Below, piece by piece: positions 1,733 to 35,945 of a stretch of 64,000 nucleotides of DNA. The DNA is taken from the NCBI GenBank assembly GCA_022826825.1, contig JAJDUD010000061.1, positions 124,001 to 188,000 on the forward strand. Reading direction: 5' to 3'. Every line of letters begins with the position of its first letter. Positions within the stretch are counted from its first letter, which is position 1. This DNA comes from Acidobacteriota bacterium. Lineage in GTDB: Bacteria; Acidobacteriota; Vicinamibacteria; Marinacidobacterales; Marinacidobacteraceae. The position numbers were made by a program, and so were the translations under genes. Under the pieces are notes generated by a model. That model saw only the letters and a list, made by a program, of their open reading frames with translations. It was not told where the DNA came from and made no database searches.

Positions 1733-1969
1733 ATGTTGCACCCGAACTTGTCCCGATACACAAACAGATTCCCTAGTGCTAATCTGACTGATGCTGCGTT
1801 CCTTGCCAGCCGTGTAGCCGGGTTTCAGGTTCACCCGTCAGGGACATTGATGTCACGTAGAAGGAAGCGGAAACAGGTGCCGGCCCGCTTCCGGTTTCGG
1901 GACGGCGGCGCGACGGTGACGGCGGGCGCGTGGGTAGTGCGGGCGCCGGGCGTTCCCGGCCGCGGCTGA
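1733..1969 (+). CDS. Possible small protein, unknown function
   Basis: A 78-codon reading frame starting at an ATG with AGGAG just upstream (around 1720-1724), a better ribosome binding site than most genes here have. The first 40 or so codons lie in a patch visibly richer in A and T than its surroundings (about 1660-1860). The rest is basic, with an SRRRKRKQ cluster. I recognise no domain. It could be a genuine small gene, a leader peptide or a remnant of foreign DNA. The rest of 1651-2184 shows nothing else I can name. Confidence 0.3.
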   Translation: MLHPNLSRYTNRFPSANLTDAAFLASRVAGFQVHPSGTLMSRRRKRKQVPARFRFRDGGATVTAGAWVVRAPGVPGRG

Positions 1970-2184
1970 CGCTTCCCGGCGGAAATCGCCTCACCGTGCG
2001 CCCGATCTGGGAAACGGCCCGATTCCGGGGGGGGCGATCCGTGGCCGGCATCCTCCATTCGGCTCCCGGGCCTCCCCGTGGCAACTCGCGGACCCGGGGC
2101 CTGCGTGGCGGCTTGACGAGGGTGAGGTCACGAACGGCGGAGCGCCGAGCGCCGCGGATCTCTGTTCACGCCCTCGCCATCTGC

Positions 2185-5100
2185 ATGAGAGTCGCCGGAT
2201 CCTCACTGGTGTTCGCCGCCGGAGTTCCGCAATCGGCAACGGCCCAATCGCCAGCCGAGATCCGTGTTGACGACAGCGCCGTCGTTGTCGCCGAAAACGG
2301 GGGCACCTACACGCAAAAGGTGTGGCTCTTCAGCGAACCGACTGCGAACGTCACCCTGCAGGTAACGAGTGGAAACACCTCGGTGGTGACCGTGAGTCCG
2401 ACGACGCTTACGTTCACTCCATCGAACTACCGCGTCAAACAGGAGGTGACGTACACCGGAGTCGATGACAGCGCACGCAACTTCCCTCCGGCGCACCGGG
2501 CAACGACGGTCACCTACACCGCAAGCGGCGGGAACTATGCCGGCATCTCTCACCGGGTGAGCGTTATCGCGTCCGATGATGAACCCATTGTGTACGCCCT
2601 CGCTGAGGGATTTTCGTACAACGTGGGCATGGGGTTCGTGGTGGCGCAGGGCTGCACCCCGGTCGTGGTGCATCTCGTCAGTTCCGATACCAGCTTGCTC
2701 CGGGTCGAACCGACGATGCTGTCGTGGACCGAGCAGGATTCGGGCACGACGAAGGCGGCGAGGATGACGTTTCCCCTCAACAACGCGCTCGGGGACAGCC
2801 GCGTCAGGCTCGAGCGGCGTCTCACCCAGCCCTGCGAGGGAGCCATAGATCCCCAGGACCTCATCTTCGTCGTGCGAGACAACGACCCGTGGAGTCTGTC
2901 CGTCGAGGGCGCCCCGGCGTGCGGCGCCACGGTCACCGACTCATCCATACCGGCGTCGACCTCCCTCGTGCTCACTCCCGCCCCGTCGGCGGAGCTCGAG
3001 ACGGAGTATCGGTGGGTCACCGACACGGCGCAGGGGGAATGGCGAGCGGCTCAACCGATCCGAACGTCCGGCCGCTCGATCGCTGTGACCCACTCCAGAC
3101 TCAACGAGTTACGGAGGGCGTACGCCGGTTTTGCCGGGTTCGACTATCGGCTCAGGGACGCCCCCGACATCACTGCGCGGTGCACCTGGTCGTTCGACGA
3201 CGACGGCAGCGACGGCGGCCCGGACGGTGGCGGCGGTGGCGGCGGCGGCGGTTCGCCGCCAGCGAACCGGCCTCCCGCCTTCGGGCGTTCGCTTTACCGC
3301 TTCGAGCTTCCGGAGAACGAGGACGGGCGACGCCGTCCGGTGGCGCTGGGGACGGTCGAGGCGGAGGATCCGGACGGCGACGCCGTGACCTACTCACTGG
3401 CCTCCGGCGACGCGGAGCGCTTCGCCATCGGGGCGGCGGACGGGGCGGTGCTCTACGTGGGGCCGGGCGAGGACTACGAGACGGAGCCGAACCGGTTCGA
3501 GTTGACGGTTCGCGCCCGCGACCCGCACCGGGCGGAAGCGCTGGCGCAGGTGGTGGTCGAGGTGGTGAACGTGAACGACGCGCCGGAGGCGGAGGACGAC
3601 GAGGCGGAGACGGCCGAGGACGTAGCGGTGGTGGTGGACGTGCTGGCCAACGACACGGACCCGGACGGGGACGCGCTGCGGGTGCGGAGCGTCTCGGCGG
3701 CGGCGCACGGGAGCACGGCCATCGGTCCGCGCGGGGTGGTGTACACGCCGCACGCGAACTACCACGGGACGGACCGATTCACTTACGTGGCCGCCGACAG
3801 CGACGGGGAGACGGCGGAGGCGGCGGTTGAAGTGACGGTCACCCCCGTGAACGACGCGCCGGAGGCGGAGGACGACGAGGCGGAGACGGCCGAGGACGTG
3901 GCGGTGGTGGTGGACGTGCTGGCCAACGACACGGACCCGGACGGGGACGCGCTGCGGGTGCGGAGCGTCTCGGCAGCGGCGCACGGGAGCACGGCCATCG
4001 GTCCGCGCGGGGTGGTGTACACGCCGCACGCGAACTACCACGGGACGGACCGGTTCACCTACGTAGCCGCCGACAGCGACGGGGAGATGGTGGAGGCGGC
4101 GGTTGCAGTGACGGTCACCCCGGTGAACGACGCGCCGGAGGCGGAGGGGGTGATCCCGGACCAGACGCTCGACGAGGGCGGCGGCGAGAAGTCGGTGGAC
4201 CTCGGGCCGTTCTTCAAGGATGTCGACGGCGACGCGCTGAGCTACCGCGCGTCGTCGTCGGACGCGGCCGTGACGGTGGTGTCGGTGGCCGGGGCGCTGA
4301 TGACGCTGACGCCGGCGGAGTACGGCTCGGCGGTGGTGACGGTGACGGCGGAGGACCCGCAAGGGTTGACGGCGCAGCAGACATTCGCGGTGGGGGTGAG
4401 CGACCGCCTGGTGCGGGCGGTGGTGGGCGACACGCTGGCGGCGATGGCGCGGTCGCAGTTGGCGAGCGCGCGGGTGACGCTGGGGCGCCGGGCGCCGGCG
4501 AAGGGAGCGGCGGGCGGTTCGCGTCTGACGGTGCTGGGGCGCCCGGTACCTTTTGACATGGCGTCGGCGCGGGCGGCGGCGGAGCAGTTGCTGGCGCGTT
4601 GGGCGGCGGGCGCGGGAGGATATGGCCTCGGACCAGGGGCCGGCACCGTCGCAGCGGGCATGGGCGCCGGGCCGGGCAGGATGCTGCCGGGGGCGGCGGC
4701 GGGAGCCGGCGGCCCCGGCCGGGCCGGCAATGTGGTTCGCTCCGCGCTTGGCGGCATTCATGGCGTCGGCGGCCTCGGCGGCTTCGCAGCGGGGATGGAC
4801 CCGTTGCGGGGCTCGGAGTTCCAGTTGGCGCTGGGCGAGCGGACGGCCCGTGCGGCGAGTCCGGGCCGGCTCTGGAAGCTTTGGGGACAGGGCGACATCC
4901 AGACGTTCGTGGGAGCGCCGTCGGGGTCGGACTACGAGGGCGACGTTCGAACCGCCTACGTCGGGGTGGACACGGCGCTGTCGGCGCGCTGGCGGGCGGG
5001 AGTCGCGGTCTCGCGCGGCGACGGCGGCGGTGACTGGCGGGTGGGCGACGCGCGCGGCGCGCTGTCCACGAGCCTGACCACCGCCTATCCCTACGTGCAA

Positions 5101-5862
5101 TGGTCGGAGGGGCCGAACTCGGTGTGGGCGACGGCGGGGGCCGGCTGGGGGACGGCGGAGAACGTGCGCGAGTCGGGCCGCGTGGGGACGAGCGACCTGA
5201 GTCTGCGGCTGGGTCTGGTCGAGGTGCGTCGGGATCTCGACGCGGTCGGCGGCGTGGACCTGAACCTGCGGGGCGACGCGGCCTGGGCGCGACTTCGCAC
5301 CGCGGCGGGCGACGAGACCGTTGACCGCCAGTCGGCGGCAGCCCATCAGGCGCGGGCGGGCGCCGAGCTGTCGCGTCCCCTGCGCTGGGAAGGCGGATCG
5401 CTGTCGCCGTTCGGCGAGCTGCACGTGCGGCGCGACGGTGGCGCGGGCCAGACGGGGACGGGTCTGGAGGTGGAGGCCGGGACACGGCTCGCCGTGGGGC
5501 GGCTCCGGGTGGACGCGCAGGGCCGGCTGCTCGTGTTGCACTCGGCGTCGGGCTACCGGGAGCGGGGCGTGGGGATGACGCTCGGCGTCGGGAGCCGCGA
5601 CCGGATCGGTCTGTCGCTCCTGGTGTCGCCACGCTGGGGCGACGCGGCAACCGGCCGCGGGACACTGTGGCGGGAGCAGGTCTTCCGCAGCCGCCTGCCG
5701 GAGGCGAGGAGCGACGCGTGGGCGTTGGACGCGCGGGGCGAGTACGGCATGCGGCTCTCCAGTGGCGGGCTGTTGACGTGGTTCGGCTCGCTGAGCCGAT
5801 CGGCCTGGGGCCGGCGGCTGATGATCGGCGGCCGGCTCGGCAGGCCTTCGTCCGGCCCGTAG
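2185..5862 (+). CDS. Cadherin/Ig-repeat surface protein with autotransporter-like barrel
   Basis: A large exported adhesin-like protein of about 1225 residues. From the ATG at 2185 it begins with a short signal peptide ending near SATAQS; an in-frame GTG at 2122 would give a longer, more basic n-region, and the frame is open to 1930, so the start is uncertain. In order: two beta-sandwich segments, a linker with nine consecutive glycines near 3230, a cadherin-like domain (about 3280-3580), two almost identical 92-residue modules with the DTDPDGDAL calcium-type motif, and a further PEAEGVIPDQTLDEGG module. From about 4860 to the end, alternating hydrophobic strands resemble an autotransporter beta-barrel. 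Probably surface-anchored through its own barrel. The ligand is unknown. Confidence 0.8.
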   Translation: MRVAGSSLVFAAGVPQSATAQSPAEIRVDDSAVVVAENGGTYTQKVWLFSEPTANVTLQVTSGNTSVVTVSPTTLTFTPSNYRVKQEVTYTGVDDSARNFPPAHRATTVTYTASGGNYAGISHRVSVIASDDEPIVYALAEGFSYNVGMGFVVAQGCTPVVVHLVSSDTSLLRVEPTMLSWTEQDSGTTKAARMTFPLNNALGDSRVRLERRLTQPCEGAIDPQDLIFVVRDNDPWSLSVEGAPACGATVTDSSIPASTSLVLTPAPSAELETEYRWVTDTAQGEWRAAQPIRTSGRSIAVTHSRLNELRRAYAGFAGFDYRLRDAPDITARCTWSFDDDGSDGGPDGGGGGGGGGSPPANRPPAFGRSLYRFELPENEDGRRRPVALGTVEAEDPDGDAVTYSLASGDAERFAIGAADGAVLYVGPGEDYETEPNRFELTVRARDPHRAEALAQVVVEVVNVNDAPEAEDDEAETAEDVAVVVDVLANDTDPDGDALRVRSVSAAAHGSTAIGPRGVVYTPHANYHGTDRFTYVAADSDGETAEAAVEVTVTPVNDAPEAEDDEAETAEDVAVVVDVLANDTDPDGDALRVRSVSAAAHGSTAIGPRGVVYTPHANYHGTDRFTYVAADSDGEMVEAAVAVTVTPVNDAPEAEGVIPDQTLDEGGGEKSVDLGPFFKDVDGDALSYRASSSDAAVTVVSVAGALMTLTPAEYGSAVVTVTAEDPQGLTAQQTFAVGVSDRLVRAVVGDTLAAMARSQLASARVTLGRRAPAKGAAGGSRLTVLGRPVPFDMASARAAAEQLLARWAAGAGGYGLGPGAGTVAAGMGAGPGRMLPGAAAGAGGPGRAGNVVRSALGGIHGVGGLGGFAAGMDPLRGSEFQLALGERTARAASPGRLWKLWGQGDIQTFVGAPSGSDYEGDVRTAYVGVDTALSARWRAGVAVSRGDGGGDWRVGDARGALSTSLTTAYPYVQWSEGPNSVWATAGAGWGTAENVRESGRVGTSDLSLRLGLVEVRRDLDAVGGVDLNLRGDAAWARLRTAAGDETVDRQSAAAHQARAGAELSRPLRWEGGSLSPFGELHVRRDGGAGQTGTGLEVEAGTRLAVGRLRVDAQGRLLVLHSASGYRERGVGMTLGVGSRDRIGLSLLVSPRWGDAATGRGTLWREQVFRSRLPEARSDAWALDARGEYGMRLSSGGLLTWFGSLSRSAWGRRLMIGGRLGRPSSGP
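3571..4122 (+). repeat. Two tandem 276-base coding repeats
   Basis: 3571-3846 and 3847-4122 are the same length, in frame (92 codons), and differ at only about eight positions. The encoded modules start VNDAPEAEDDEAETAEDV and are VCBS/cadherin-like. Such high nucleotide identity points to recent duplication or ongoing gene conversion. Confidence 0.95.
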
Positions 5863-5990: not shown

Positions 5991-6020
5991 TTGACTTGGA
6001 CCCCGGTTCAGCCGTATAAG
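5991..6020 (+). promoter_or_regulatory. Sigma-70-type promoter
   Basis: TTGACT at 5991-5996 and TATAAG at 6015-6020 are separated by 18 bases, about 65 bases before the first gene of the exported-protein operon. It is the best consensus promoter I found in the window. The rest of the 5863-6086 gap shows no other feature. Confidence 0.7.
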
Positions 6021-6086: not shown

Positions 6087-7562
6087 ATGCCCAGCCACCT
6101 CAACAATCCCAAACGCCTGGCAGTCGGCCTGCTTGCGGCCGGCGTCGCGTTCTTCCTCCTCGGGGGATTCGCTGCGGCCCAGGAGGAAGAAGCGGAGCCC
6201 AAGCCGCCTGAGGGGCAGACCCACCCGCTCCTTGAGCCTCACGACGTGCTCAACGAGTTCGGGGTGATCAGTTCCAGCGGGCACGACGACGGCGGCTGGG
6301 GGCTCACGCCCGATTTGCGCGTGCCCGAGCAATACCAGTACCGGCGCCGGGATCAGCAACTGAAGGAAGTGGACCTCACGGGGAACCAGCTTCCGCCGAT
6401 CCTCACCGAGATGCGGGTGCTCAGCAAGGAAGTCGCGCCCGGCGACGAGGTGCGCGCCATCGCGCGGGTCGTCTCGCCCTACAACGAGGCCCAGTCGTTC
6501 GTCTCGCTGTTCTACAACCGGGAGCTCGGCCGCGCGGCCACCATGTACATCAACTTCCAGCCGCACGAGAGTGACGACACCCTGTTCCTCGGCCGCGGCA
6601 AGCTGTCCCGCTTCGCGGCGCCGGGACGCTACGTGGTGGGAACCACGATCATCGCCGACAAGGTAGGCGACCGGAAGGCGTACTGGGCCGATTTCCACAA
6701 GGCGATGCAGGAGGAGGACGGTTCGCCGGTCGGCTTCCAGGTCACCGAGAGCGACAGCGTGGACATCACCGCGCCGATCCTGAAGTCCGTCAGCGTGGAA
6801 ACCGAACGCGTGCGGGCCGGCGGAGGCCTGATCAAGTACAGCGTGGTCGCCGAGGACGAAGTTTCCGGCGCCACCGAGGCCGAGACGATCTGGGTGTCCC
6901 CCAGCGGCTACCACCAGATCCGCTCGACCATGGTGATGGTGGGCGGCCAGCCGGGTCTCTTCAAGGGCGTGCTCCAGATTCCCCGGTGGTACGAGGGCGG
7001 CGAGTGGCAGCTCATGCGCATCACGCTCAAGGACAACGCCACCAACATCCGGTACTACTTCAACCGCACCGAGCCCATGATGGAAGCGGCGACGGTTCAG
7101 GTGGACCAGGAAAAGGAAATGATCGACCAGGTCCCGGCCGAGATCCTCGCGGTGCAGTTCACCAAGAAACAGGCCAAGCTGGGCGAGCGGGTAGGGCTGA
7201 CCGTCCTCGCCGAGGACAACCTCTCCGGCGTCTTCAGCATCGAGGGCTACGTCCGGTCGCCGAACGGCGCCGACGCGCTCAAGGTGAAACTCAAGAGCAT
7301 GACCCCCGAAGCCGGCGAGTTCGTGGACGTGAACCGACCGTCCAAGCTGCCGGAACCCAACATCTGGACCGGGAATTTCACGGTCACGGACACCATGGAG
7401 TGGGGCGAGTGGGAACTCGTCCGGCTCGGCGTTTCCGATGAAGCCAGGAACTTCTACACCTACTACGAAGACCGGGATCCCGAGATAGACGGGATCACGG
7501 TCAACTTCTACAATGAAGACACCGAGACCGCCGAAGAAGGCGGCAAGGAGGGTGCGCGATGA
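6087..7562 (+). CDS. Exported Ig-like-domain protein, unknown function
   Basis: A 491-residue secreted protein. The ATG at 6087 has GGAG ten bases upstream and is followed by a clear Sec signal peptide (hydrophobic core AVGLLAAGVAFFLLGGFAAA, cleavage before QEEE). The mature part seems to be all beta, with at least two related domains: stretches such as ITAPILKSVSVETERVRAGG and PAEILAVQFTKKQAKLGERV each introduce a segment with a DEVSG or DNLSG motif, as in Ig-like surface domains. No catalytic residues are evident. It overlaps the next gene by four bases (ATGA), so it is probably made together with the Tat-exported protein and may be its periplasmic partner. Confidence 0.75.
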   Translation: MPSHLNNPKRLAVGLLAAGVAFFLLGGFAAAQEEEAEPKPPEGQTHPLLEPHDVLNEFGVISSSGHDDGGWGLTPDLRVPEQYQYRRRDQQLKEVDLTGNQLPPILTEMRVLSKEVAPGDEVRAIARVVSPYNEAQSFVSLFYNRELGRAATMYINFQPHESDDTLFLGRGKLSRFAAPGRYVVGTTIIADKVGDRKAYWADFHKAMQEEDGSPVGFQVTESDSVDITAPILKSVSVETERVRAGGGLIKYSVVAEDEVSGATEAETIWVSPSGYHQIRSTMVMVGGQPGLFKGVLQIPRWYEGGEWQLMRITLKDNATNIRYYFNRTEPMMEAATVQVDQEKEMIDQVPAEILAVQFTKKQAKLGERVGLTVLAEDNLSGVFSIEGYVRSPNGADALKVKLKSMTPEAGEFVDVNRPSKLPEPNIWTGNFTVTDTMEWGEWELVRLGVSDEARNFYTYYEDRDPEIDGITVNFYNEDTETAEEGGKEGAR

Positions 7563-8899
7563 CGGCCAAGACGATCGACCGCCGCGATTTCTTCAAGCTG
7601 GGCGCGGCCGCGAGCGCCGGGGCGGTGCTTTCCACCCGGAACGCCGCCGGTAGTCCCATCTTCGAGGCGGGGGCCGGGATCCCGCAGGGAGGCATGGTCC
7701 TTCCGGCGAACCCGGGCTTCAAGACGAAGCACCTGGTGACGGTCATCCTGGGCAACGGCGCCCGGAAGATCGACGTCATCGACAACCCGGAGCACTCGCC
7801 CTTCCAGACGAAGATGGCCCCCGAGGGCACCGTCTTCACCGAGGACTACGGCGAGACCGCGAACCTCCACGGCTACATGTACTCCGAGGTGCTCAGCGGC
7901 GTGGACGCTCCCGCCCAACGGCCCCGCTACCCCACCTGGTCCGAGTACATCCGGAAGAAGGCCGGCGGGACGGCGACCGACTACTGGACTCTCCAGGGCG
8001 CGTCCTACTACCGCGCCTGGACCTGGGACGTGAAGCACTTCAGCCAGCATCCCGAATACGGCGTCAAGCACGGGTCCACGAGCCTCACGATGAACCGGAT
8101 CTTCTATCCGGAGCAGCAGCTCACCGGCGCGCAGATCGTGGATCTGAACGTGGAGAAGGGCCTCGGGCACACGCCGAAGGAGCGGAAGCAGGTCGAGGAG
8201 TTCATCGACTCCGTCCTGGCGTCCAAGTCCTATGTCCCGCCGTCCACCCGGGAGCCGGTCATCAACCGGGAGATCCCCTACGGGGACGCTCAGGTGCTGA
8301 CCCTGGTGCCCCAGATCCTCAAGGAGTTCAAGCCGAAGTCCATCACCGCGCAGATCCTCGCCCTCGACGACGCGCACGCCGACTTCGGGTTCTGGGACTA
8401 CAACACGGACTACTGGGAGTACATCAAGCACATCAAGACCACCGATGAGCTGATCGGCAACCTGTGGCGCCAGATCCAGGCGGACGCGTACCTCCGGGAC
8501 ACGACCGCGCTGGTGATCCGTCCCGAGTGCGGCCGCGACGACGAAGTGAACATCTACGGACAACTCGGGCACAGCCCGGGCAACTACTACGCCCACTACG
8601 TGTGGTTCATGGCGCTCGGGCCCGACTTCAAGAAGGGCCACACCGTGACCGAGCGGGTGCAGCGGCGGGACGTCGTTCCGACGCTGACCTACCTCATGTC
8701 CGGTGAGAACGCCGAGTTCGCCACCGGGCACGTCCGGACCCAGATGTTCAAGGACGAGTACAACCTGCCGAAGTACATCCTTCCGCCGACCGCCGAGGTG
8801 AAAGAGCCCGCAGTCGATTGGGAGAAGATCGTCGAAGAACGCCGGACGGCCGAGAAGGTCAAGGAGTTCGCGCGTTCGACCGTCGGTTACGGCGACTGA
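7559..8899 (+). CDS. Tat-exported alkaline-phosphatase-superfamily-like protein
   Basis: A 446-residue protein with a twin-arginine signal (DRRDFFKLGAAASAGAVL), so it is exported folded. The body resembles the alkaline phosphatase/sulfatase fold. ALDDAHADFG matches the Asp...His metal-binding stretch. RPECGRDD followed by GQLGHS and WFMALGPDFKKG parallels the usual 'DHG ... GH ... GP' end of the family, and RDVVPTLTYLM is the typical C-terminal helix. The usual second-site Asp-His pair appears to be Glu-Cys here, and the N-terminal metal-binding Asp (normally in an 'IDG' motif) is not obvious, where GNGARK occupies the position. The activity may therefore be altered or lost. It sits between the Ig-like protein and a zinc-ribbon protein in one operon. 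Confidence 0.65.
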   Translation: MTAKTIDRRDFFKLGAAASAGAVLSTRNAAGSPIFEAGAGIPQGGMVLPANPGFKTKHLVTVILGNGARKIDVIDNPEHSPFQTKMAPEGTVFTEDYGETANLHGYMYSEVLSGVDAPAQRPRYPTWSEYIRKKAGGTATDYWTLQGASYYRAWTWDVKHFSQHPEYGVKHGSTSLTMNRIFYPEQQLTGAQIVDLNVEKGLGHTPKERKQVEEFIDSVLASKSYVPPSTREPVINREIPYGDAQVLTLVPQILKEFKPKSITAQILALDDAHADFGFWDYNTDYWEYIKHIKTTDELIGNLWRQIQADAYLRDTTALVIRPECGRDDEVNIYGQLGHSPGNYYAHYVWFMALGPDFKKGHTVTERVQRRDVVPTLTYLMSGENAEFATGHVRTQMFKDEYNLPKYILPPTAEVKEPAVDWEKIVEERRTAEKVKEFARSTVGYGD

Positions 8900-8945
8900 C
8901 CTGAGGACGAAGTCCCGAGTCAAACAAACAAGGAGATCAACGAAA

Positions 8946-9215
8946 ATGGACGATCTGAACCGTCGCGCATTCCTCAGGAGGGCCGGTTTCGCCTTCGCGG
9001 GCGCGGTGGGCGCCGCCTCGTTCGCGGCCGCCCAGCAGCAGGAAGAGGAGAAGAAGGAAGACGAAGAGGCCCAGGAAGAGATCGACTACGACGCTCTCTT
9101 CGCGGAGGATGCCGGGGACGAAGACACCCGCGCCTGCCCGCAGTGCGGGGCTCTCATGTACCGGCAGGGCCGGACCTGGACCTGCGAGAACTGCGGCTAC
9201 AGCTACGTCGAGTAG
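8946..9215 (+). CDS. Small Tat-exported zinc-ribbon (rubredoxin-like) protein
   Basis: An 89-residue protein with a twin-arginine-type signal (LNRRAFLRRAGFAFAGAVG), then an acidic linker of Glu, Lys and Asp, then a compact four-cysteine knuckle: CPQCG ... CENCGYSYVE. The two CxxC pairs would bind zinc or iron. Tat export would let the metal be loaded in the cytoplasm. GGAG lies about ten bases before the ATG. It is the last gene of the three-gene operon and is followed by a terminator. It could be an electron-transfer or metal-delivery partner of the upstream Tat protein; that is inference. Confidence 0.75.
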   Translation: MDDLNRRAFLRRAGFAFAGAVGAASFAAAQQQEEEKKEDEEAQEEIDYDALFAEDAGDEDTRACPQCGALMYRQGRTWTCENCGYSYVE

Positions 9216-34392: not shown

Positions 34393-35945
34393 GCGTCCAA
34401 CGGCGAGACGGCCTCGCAGCCGCGAGTTCTGATCGCTCTTGGTGCTCCTGCGCCGCGCTGTTTTTCGTGCCGTTCCTCGTTGCCTGCACGGGTGACCGGG
34501 CGCCCGAGGGAGACCCGGCCCGGCCCAACGTCCTCTTCATCGCGGTCGACGACCTGAACGACTGGATCGAGCCGCTCGGCGGACATCCCCAGGCCCGCAC
34601 CCCCAACCTCTCCCGGTTGGCCGGCGAGGGCGTGCTCTTCACCCGCGCCTACACCCCCTCCCCCTCCTGCAACCCGTCGCGGACCGCGCTCCTGACCGGA
34701 CAACACACCACCACCTCGGGGATGTATTCCAACTACCAGTGGTGGCGAGAGGTCTTGCCCCATGCCGTGACCCTTCCCCGGTATTTCGCGGACAACGGTT
34801 ACTGGGCCGGGGGCGCGGGGAAGATCTTCCACAACAACCAGCCCGATCCCGGGTCCTGGGACGACTACTTTCCGTCGCTCGAGGAGCACATGCCGTCGTC
34901 GCCGCGTCCCGTGGGGGAAGGCACGGTGAACATGCCGGCCTTCCCCGACATGTACGGCGCTTTCGACTGGGCGCCCCTCGACGTGCCGGACGAGGCGATG
35001 GGGGACTACCGGTCGGTGGCCTGGGCCATCGAAGCGCTCGAGCGGGAGCACGAGAAACCGTTCTTCCTGGCGGTCGGGATCTACCGCCCCCACCTGCCCT
35101 GGTACGTCCCCCGGAAGTACTTCGAGATGTTCCCGCTCGCTGAGGTCCAGCTTCCGCGGCTCCTCGAAAACGATCTCGCGGACGTCCCCGAACGCGCCGT
35201 CGAGATCGCGCGCCGCGGCGGGAACTACCACGAGCACGTCCTCGCCGCCGACCAGTGGCGGGAGGGCGTCCAGGGGTATCTCGCCTCCATCGCCTACGCC
35301 GACGCGATGGTCGGCCTGCTCCTCGATGCGCTCGACGCCAGCCCGCACGCGGAGGACACCGTCGTCGTCCTCTGGTCGGATCACGGTTGGCAGCTCGGCG
35401 AAAAGGAACACTGGAGGAAGTTCGCGCTCTGGGAGAACCTCACCCGCGTTGTCCTGATGTTCCGGGTGCCGGAGGGGACCGGCGCCCTCCCCGGGGGCAC
35501 GCCCGCCGGGGTTCGCTCCGGCAGGACGGTTTCCCTCCTCGACCTCTATCCCACCCTGGTGGAGCTCGGCGGGCTACCCGAAAAGGAGGGCCTCGACGGC
35601 CGGAGCCTGGCGCCGCTCCTCAAGGATCCCGATGCCGCCTGGGATCGTCCGGTCATCACCACTTACCAGTTCGGCGAGTACGCGGTCCGCGACGAACGCT
35701 TCCAGTACATCCGCTATATCGACGGGAGCGAAGAGCTCTATGACCTGGAGGCGGACCCGGAAGCGTGGACCAACCTCGCCGGCGATTCCCGGTACGCCGC
35801 GGACCAGGCCCGGTTGAACGCCCTTCTCCCGACCGATCCCGCGCCCTTCGTGGAAACCGACTATCCGCTCATGCCCCACCACATCCCGCCGCTGCGCGGG
35901 CTCGACGACTACCTGGAGCGCAAGGCGGCCGGCGCGCGACGGTAG
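34389..35945 (+). CDS. Lipoprotein sulfatase (type I, formylglycine)
   Basis: A 518-residue sulfatase resembling iduronate-2-sulfatases. The active-site motif CNPSR (Cys-x-Pro-Ser-Arg) should be converted to formylglycine by a modifying enzyme encoded elsewhere. Metal-binding residues are visible in [11 protein letters not shown] and [14 protein letters not shown], and [15 protein letters not shown] is the usual C-terminal element. From GTG 34389 (GTGA overlap with the previous gene) it begins with a lipoprotein signal ending FLVACTG, so it is anchored in the envelope. It would desulfate sulfated glycans or related esters. The combination with fabH and a YyaL-type gene in an overlapping set is unexplained. 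Confidence 0.9.

Follow-up and report, generated by a model that had tools for sequence, protein, structure and literature searches.

The window analysed here is a stretch of 64,000 nucleotides from the 3.98-Mb genome of an Acidobacteriota bacterium of the class Vicinamibacteria, and its positions 6087 to 9215 hold three forward-strand genes, P0001, P0002 and P0003 (Table 1). All three open reading frames of the preliminary description were recovered there and were also chosen by a codon-usage gene caller, and they are taken to be real genes because their dN/dS values against relatives are only 0.02-0.18. The sigma-70-like promoter read upstream of P0001 has a -35 hexamer, TTGACT, that is invariant in seven aligned loci from three genera, and a -10 hexamer that is kept in them as TATAAG or TACAAG; a simple scan of the window missed this promoter. 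A terminator-like hairpin lies 3' of P0003, and a clear hairpin followed by T7 occupies the corresponding spot after the ribbon gene of locus L161. Judging from the gene spacing, the three genes are probably transcribed as a single unit, and the promoter- and terminator-framed operon proposed earlier for this stretch appears, from these sequence features, to be a real one. Rfam and tRNA searches of the window gave no match. Between a TPR gene and the operon, positions 1930-5862 of the window encode a large autotransporter-domain protein with cadherin/Big_9 repeats; this gene is missing at the matching site in seven close relatives, and in one of them (L144) a TPR gene lies directly 5' of the Ig gene.

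Table 1. Features of the P0001-P0002-P0003 locus (window positions) and the related phage contigs.
Feature	Position or accession	Strand	Basis
Putative promoter, sigma-70-like, TTGACT-18-TATAAG	5991..6020	+	Read in the sequence
P0001, predicted Sec-exported Ig-like protein, 491 aa	6087..7562	+	ORF, structure model, dN/dS 0.05-0.18
4-bp ATGA shared by the P0001 stop and the P0002 start	7559..7562	+	Sequence; also in the paralogous pair
P0002, predicted Tat-exported alkaline-phosphatase-fold protein, 446 aa	7559..8899	+	ORF, fold matches, alignments
P0003, predicted Tat-exported zinc-ribbon protein, 89 aa	8946..9215	+	RR signal, acidic linker, invariant C-terminal ribbon
Predicted zinc ribbon in P0003, C64-x2-C67-x12-C80-x2-C83	9135..9194	+	Alignment, PDB profile matches
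Terminator-like hairpin with T tract, 3' of P0003	9276..9305	+	Found by scan
Ribbon + DUF1552 phage contigs (L228-L230, L234-L236)	IMG/VR 3300025635_000021, 3300006641_000033, 3300006863_000016		Tat-signal genes flanked by phage genes

The export signals that had been claimed for the three products, a Sec-type signal on P0001 and twin-arginine signals on the other two, are present. P0001 begins with a Sec-type signal peptide whose cleavage, by inspection, would follow ...GGFAAA. The N-terminus of P0002 is IDRRDFFKLGAA, containing the twin-arginine motif RRDFFK, and its match to the Pfam TAT_signal family (E 2e-4) falls just short of the cut-off; that of P0003 reads LNRRAFLRR, with the motif RRAFLR. 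TatC is encoded in the genome (E 3e-68), and with a twin-arginine signal on each protein and a Tat translocase to recognize it, P0002 and P0003 qualify as predicted Tat substrates.

P0001 was modeled with low-to-moderate confidence (pLDDT 64) as about 100 disordered residues followed by three Ig-like beta-sandwich domains (residues ~105-219, ~231-340 and ~352-474) that match Ig/MG-type (macroglobulin-like) folds. Its Pfam matches, to DUF7743/MG2, are below threshold, and a PDB sequence search returned weak matches only. The same genome carries a second P0001/P0002 pair, 39% identical to the first in P0001 and 53% in P0002, which again shows the 4-bp overlap and lacks a ribbon gene. Both pairs are present in all ten genomes of the family, with the two P0002 copies falling into one clade each. 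P0001 and P0002 thus appear to be a tight pair that was duplicated jointly, and since the two genes have stayed together through duplication and are translationally coupled, their products most likely cooperate.

The structure model of P0002 is of low confidence (pLDDT 46). The top 50 PDB matches listed by Foldseek all belong to the alkaline phosphatase superfamily, as do all rows of the VIA comparison, where Z values reach 15.5, with 226 residues at 4.1 Å, against the periplasmic domain of YejM. Sequence searches of the PDB, single or with a profile, gave no match for P0002. A single sulfatase was too weakly matched by the P0002 profile, and significance was reached only with an extended alignment, which gave a global profile match of E 4.5e-9 to the genome's own sulfatases, with SDHG placed over PECG. 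P0002 is therefore predicted, on its model and these matches, to have the alpha/beta fold of the superfamily, in agreement with the phosphatase/sulfatase fold assigned to it in the preliminary description. The assignment as a phosphatase is a different matter. Catalytic members use a Ser, Thr or Cys (formylglycine) nucleophile located ten residues before a conserved Gly, and a canonical sulfatase encoded at window positions 34467-35945 served as the yardstick for the catalytic residues that P0002 lacks. The nucleophile column holds His (H104 in P0002) in 28 of 28 clade members and Ser/Thr in four canonical outgroups, which also keep the metal Asp and the DHG motif. At the first metal site, the clade has N, S or G in the Asp66 position (N66 in P0002), and the DHG motif has become E-C-G or D-F-G, its His being replaced by C, F, M or L (C324 in P0002). 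The second metal site, D270, H273 and H338, is conserved across the clade and the outgroups, with a single D270 to E exception. P0002 thus departs from the catalytic members at the nucleophile and the first metal site, and agrees with them at the second.

With the canonical nucleophile missing along with half of the metal site, an ordinary phosphatase function for P0002 is doubtful, and of the earlier designation it is the fold that stands. Given this residue pattern, an ordinary phosphatase is a less likely identity for P0002 than an unconventional hydrolase or a binding protein that depends on metal. The YejM/PbgA periplasmic domain, LtaS, sulfatases and NPP share its fold (VIA Z 14-15.5) but keep a Ser, Thr or formylglycine nucleophile where P0002 has His104. 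One reading is that P0002 is nevertheless an active hydrolase, acting through H104 in a phospho-histidine-type reaction or through metal-bound water on phosphate or sulfate esters from the envelope or the host. The invariance or near-invariance of D270/H273/H338 and H104 in 28 sequences is more than a dead fold needs, and YejM, which also has an altered site, is reported to have Mg-dependent phosphatase activity, although it retains its threonine nucleophile, Thr302 (PMC7576196). We nonetheless consider an active P0002 hydrolase of this kind less likely than not, as the first-site Asp and the DHG His are lost and no characterized DUF1501-type enzyme was found in the literature searched.

The closest kin of P0002 among named families is suggested by profile comparison. 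A C-terminal local profile match (hhalign, E 2.7e-6) links P0002 to DUF1501 (PF07394), all 16 examined proteins of which share with it the His in the nucleophile column and an E/D-x-G-R motif. Further likenesses are the Tat signal, a GG replacing the metal Asp, a D-x-H motif and a late His. The similarity is, however, confined to profile-profile comparison, and a search of P0002 against PF07394 in Pfam gave no row at E up to 1. DUF1552 (HXXSHH, PF07586) is in turn related to DUF1501 by a global profile match (E 1.3e-12) and is likewise Tat-exported; compared directly with the P0002 clade it gives E values of 0.02-0.9, which are not significant, so that the link runs through DUF1501. P0002 is accordingly called here a putative DUF1501-type member of the superfamily. 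DUF1501 occurs in 47 of 60 sampled genomes of the class, and a literature search on its function gave nothing useful. Distant P0002 relatives in other Acidobacteriota (four loci) have as a constant neighbor a protein of about 450 aa with no Pfam match, and a UnbV_ASPIC/FG-GAP protein is sometimes nearby.

P0003 belongs to a small family in which the RR (Tat) signal is found in 13 of 13 aligned members, followed by a variable acidic or Lys-rich linker and then by the four-cysteine ribbon that had been recognized in it from the start, whose cysteines are invariant in the same 13 proteins. The C-terminus of the family has the form CPxC-x3-MYxQG-x2-W-x-CxxCGYxYxE; between the window protein and its orthologue in genome G225 the last 29 residues are identical (29/29), at an overall identity of 62-65%. 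P0003 has the C-x2-C ... C-x2-C pattern of ribbons, its profile matches the archaeal RpoM and S27ae zinc ribbons in the PDB, and it scores 23.3 bits against the RPB9/RpoM-type Pfam family PF02150, below the cut-off of 25.2. The spacing C-x2-C-x12-C-x2-C is also that of the rubrerythrin ribbon. Rubredoxin-type iron binding was considered and is disfavored, and zinc is the predicted metal, because the profile prefers the RpoM/S27ae zinc ribbons. The CPxCG-x-CxxCG pattern is common to P0003 and to the RpoM/TFIIS-type and S27ae ribbons, but these are cytosolic transcription or ribosome proteins, whereas P0003 would be exported by Tat as an independent protein whose linker is disordered. As a very small Tat substrate beside a larger one, it also resembles TIGR02811, the small Tat target of formate dehydrogenase regions; the match is weak (E 2.6e-4), far below the cut-off, and covers residues 3-40 only, leaving the ribbon outside. 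This strongly conserved exported ribbon, below the cut-off in Pfam and NCBIfam alike, therefore seems to be an unnamed protein family, and the statement that a system of this composition had not been described is borne out to the extent that neither database has a named family for it. A literature search for an exported zinc ribbon gave nothing useful.

The three genes differ in how widely they are distributed. With orthologues of P0002 counted at an identity of at least 65% and ribbons at E below 1e-34, P0002 was found in 12 of 193 genomes of the class Vicinamibacteria, all of one order, and P0001 in 10 of 193, all of one family and none outside it, while the ribbon was found in 37 of 193, in single copy each and across five families. 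In the wider phylum the ribbon was present in 11 of 396 genomes, only Vicinamibacteria. An alignment scan of 84,980 named species for P0002 gave 20 loci, of which all but one belong to this group; the exception, a contig with the label Gemmatimonadetes, shows the same match identities and gene order as an Acidobacteria contig and is probably mis-binned. The nearest named relatives are MAGs of Acidobacteriota, two carrying the label Vicinamibacteraceae, and names such as SB0661 and RHO1 suggest sponge samples. In the NCBI taxonomy the class includes an order Candidatus Marinacidobacterales, possibly the order concerned here. The trio as such thus appears to be lineage-specific, and the expectation that its members would co-occur in other genomes did not hold for the three taken together, since the ribbon is mostly found without the other two.

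These distributions bear on the earlier proposal that P0001, P0002 and P0003 form one obligate periplasmic complex. A single operon, co-export and a gene order kept in three genera speak for such a complex, but the Ig protein and the ribbon differ greatly in distribution (10 versus 37 genomes), the paralogous Ig/phosphatase-fold pair has no ribbon, and in G225 P0002 adjoins the ribbon in the absence of P0001. We regard an obligate complex of all three as improbable. In genome G227, which also has P0002 without P0001, P0002 and the ribbon are on separate contigs and the ribbon directly follows a TPR gene, an order suggesting that P0001/P0002 were inserted into an older TPR-ribbon neighborhood.

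Elsewhere the ribbon lies mostly away from the phosphatase-fold gene, and its neighbors vary by lineage. The arrangement is sdhCAB-TPR-ribbon-SDR or globin-OsmC-ribbon-SDR in family f3 and TPR-ribbon in family f69. Five f3 loci have the ribbon after sdhCAB and a small TPR gene, and four others have it after a truncated globin and an OsmC-like gene. The ribbon had no DUF1501/1552-type gene beside it in any of the 20 loci that were scanned apart from family f1 and G225, and on these 20 neighborhoods we reject the idea of the ribbon as a constant follower of the phosphatase-fold gene. Within the class, the presence of the ribbon and that of DUF1501 were not significantly correlated (16/18 versus 34/42 genomes; Fisher p 0.71).

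Beyond Acidobacteriota, the ribbon was sought in plasmid, phage and viral-contig collections. The plasmids and the GenBank phage set yielded no ribbons, and neither the viral contigs nor the plasmids contained P0002-like proteins; DUF1552 genes in plasmid records usually neighbor DUF1592/DUF1587 genes. The viral-contig scan gave three near-identical contigs (99.9%) in which a ribbon gene is followed, after 9 bp, by a Tat-signal DUF1552 gene (PF07586, E 3e-80). The contig is T4-like and also encodes a polymerase clamp, a clamp loader and a phage peptidase. As the phage ribbon is 64-68% identical to three ribbons of Vicinamibacteria (f3), the host of the phage may be a member of that class. Two unrelated settings, the present operon and the phage, thus place the ribbon beside a Tat protein of the DUF1501/1552 type, and this supports a functional connection between the two proteins.

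A competing reading holds that the ribbon has no functional tie to P0002 and is instead an exported housekeeping protein of the class as a whole, whose adjacency to P0002 and to the phage DUF1552 gene is accidental. Most ribbon genes do adjoin other genes (sdhCAB-TPR, truncated globin-OsmC, TPR, ribosomal genes and ABC permeases), and the separate contigs of G227, with TPR directly before the ribbon, fit this reading as well. On the other hand, a compact phage genome carries just the ribbon and DUF1552, 9 bp apart, and the ribbon is present in 12 of the 12 genomes of the order that have P0002, though both could be simply inherited. Such independence seems to us possible but rather less than probable.

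The model that best accommodates the data, with about an even chance of being right, is a dedicated P0001/P0002 pair joined by a facultative ribbon accessory of Tat-exported DUF1501/1552-type proteins. Under this model, P0002 would fold and acquire its metal in the cytoplasm before leaving by Tat, and P0001 would leave by Sec and join it beyond the membrane, where it would probably serve to bind or anchor P0002. The latter would represent a branch on the DUF1501/DUF1552 side of the superfamily, with His in place of the catalytic Ser, Thr or Cys and only the second metal site complete. P0003 would be a separate small Tat substrate, its zinc most simply loaded in the cytoplasm, which would explain its export by Tat, and probably assists Tat-exported DUF1501/1552-type proteins as an accessory in assembly, metal handling or docking, with its gene sometimes beside that of the client, as here and in the phage, and more often elsewhere. 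The genes, their signals, the fold class, the loss of the canonical catalytic residues, the paired duplication, the ribbon family and the phage neighbor can be read from sequence comparison; the pairing of P0001 with P0002, the zinc binding of P0003 and its accessory role are what we infer from them.

A broader proposal, which we put forward tentatively and at somewhat under even chance, is that the ribbon and its neighbor make up an undescribed two-component Tat-export module, in which the ribbon would accompany and mature DUF1501/1552-type proteins lacking the canonical nucleophile, and which would be phage-mobile and extended by an Ig protein in some sponge-associated Acidobacteriota. DUF1501 and DUF1552 are, to our knowledge, exported families of unknown function, and the ribbon is a candidate partner for them. 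The observation of H104 likewise provides a testable statement about the DUF1501/DUF1552 active site, and the carriage of a ribbon together with DUF1552 by a phage suggests that the pair may be of enough value in the host envelope to justify it.
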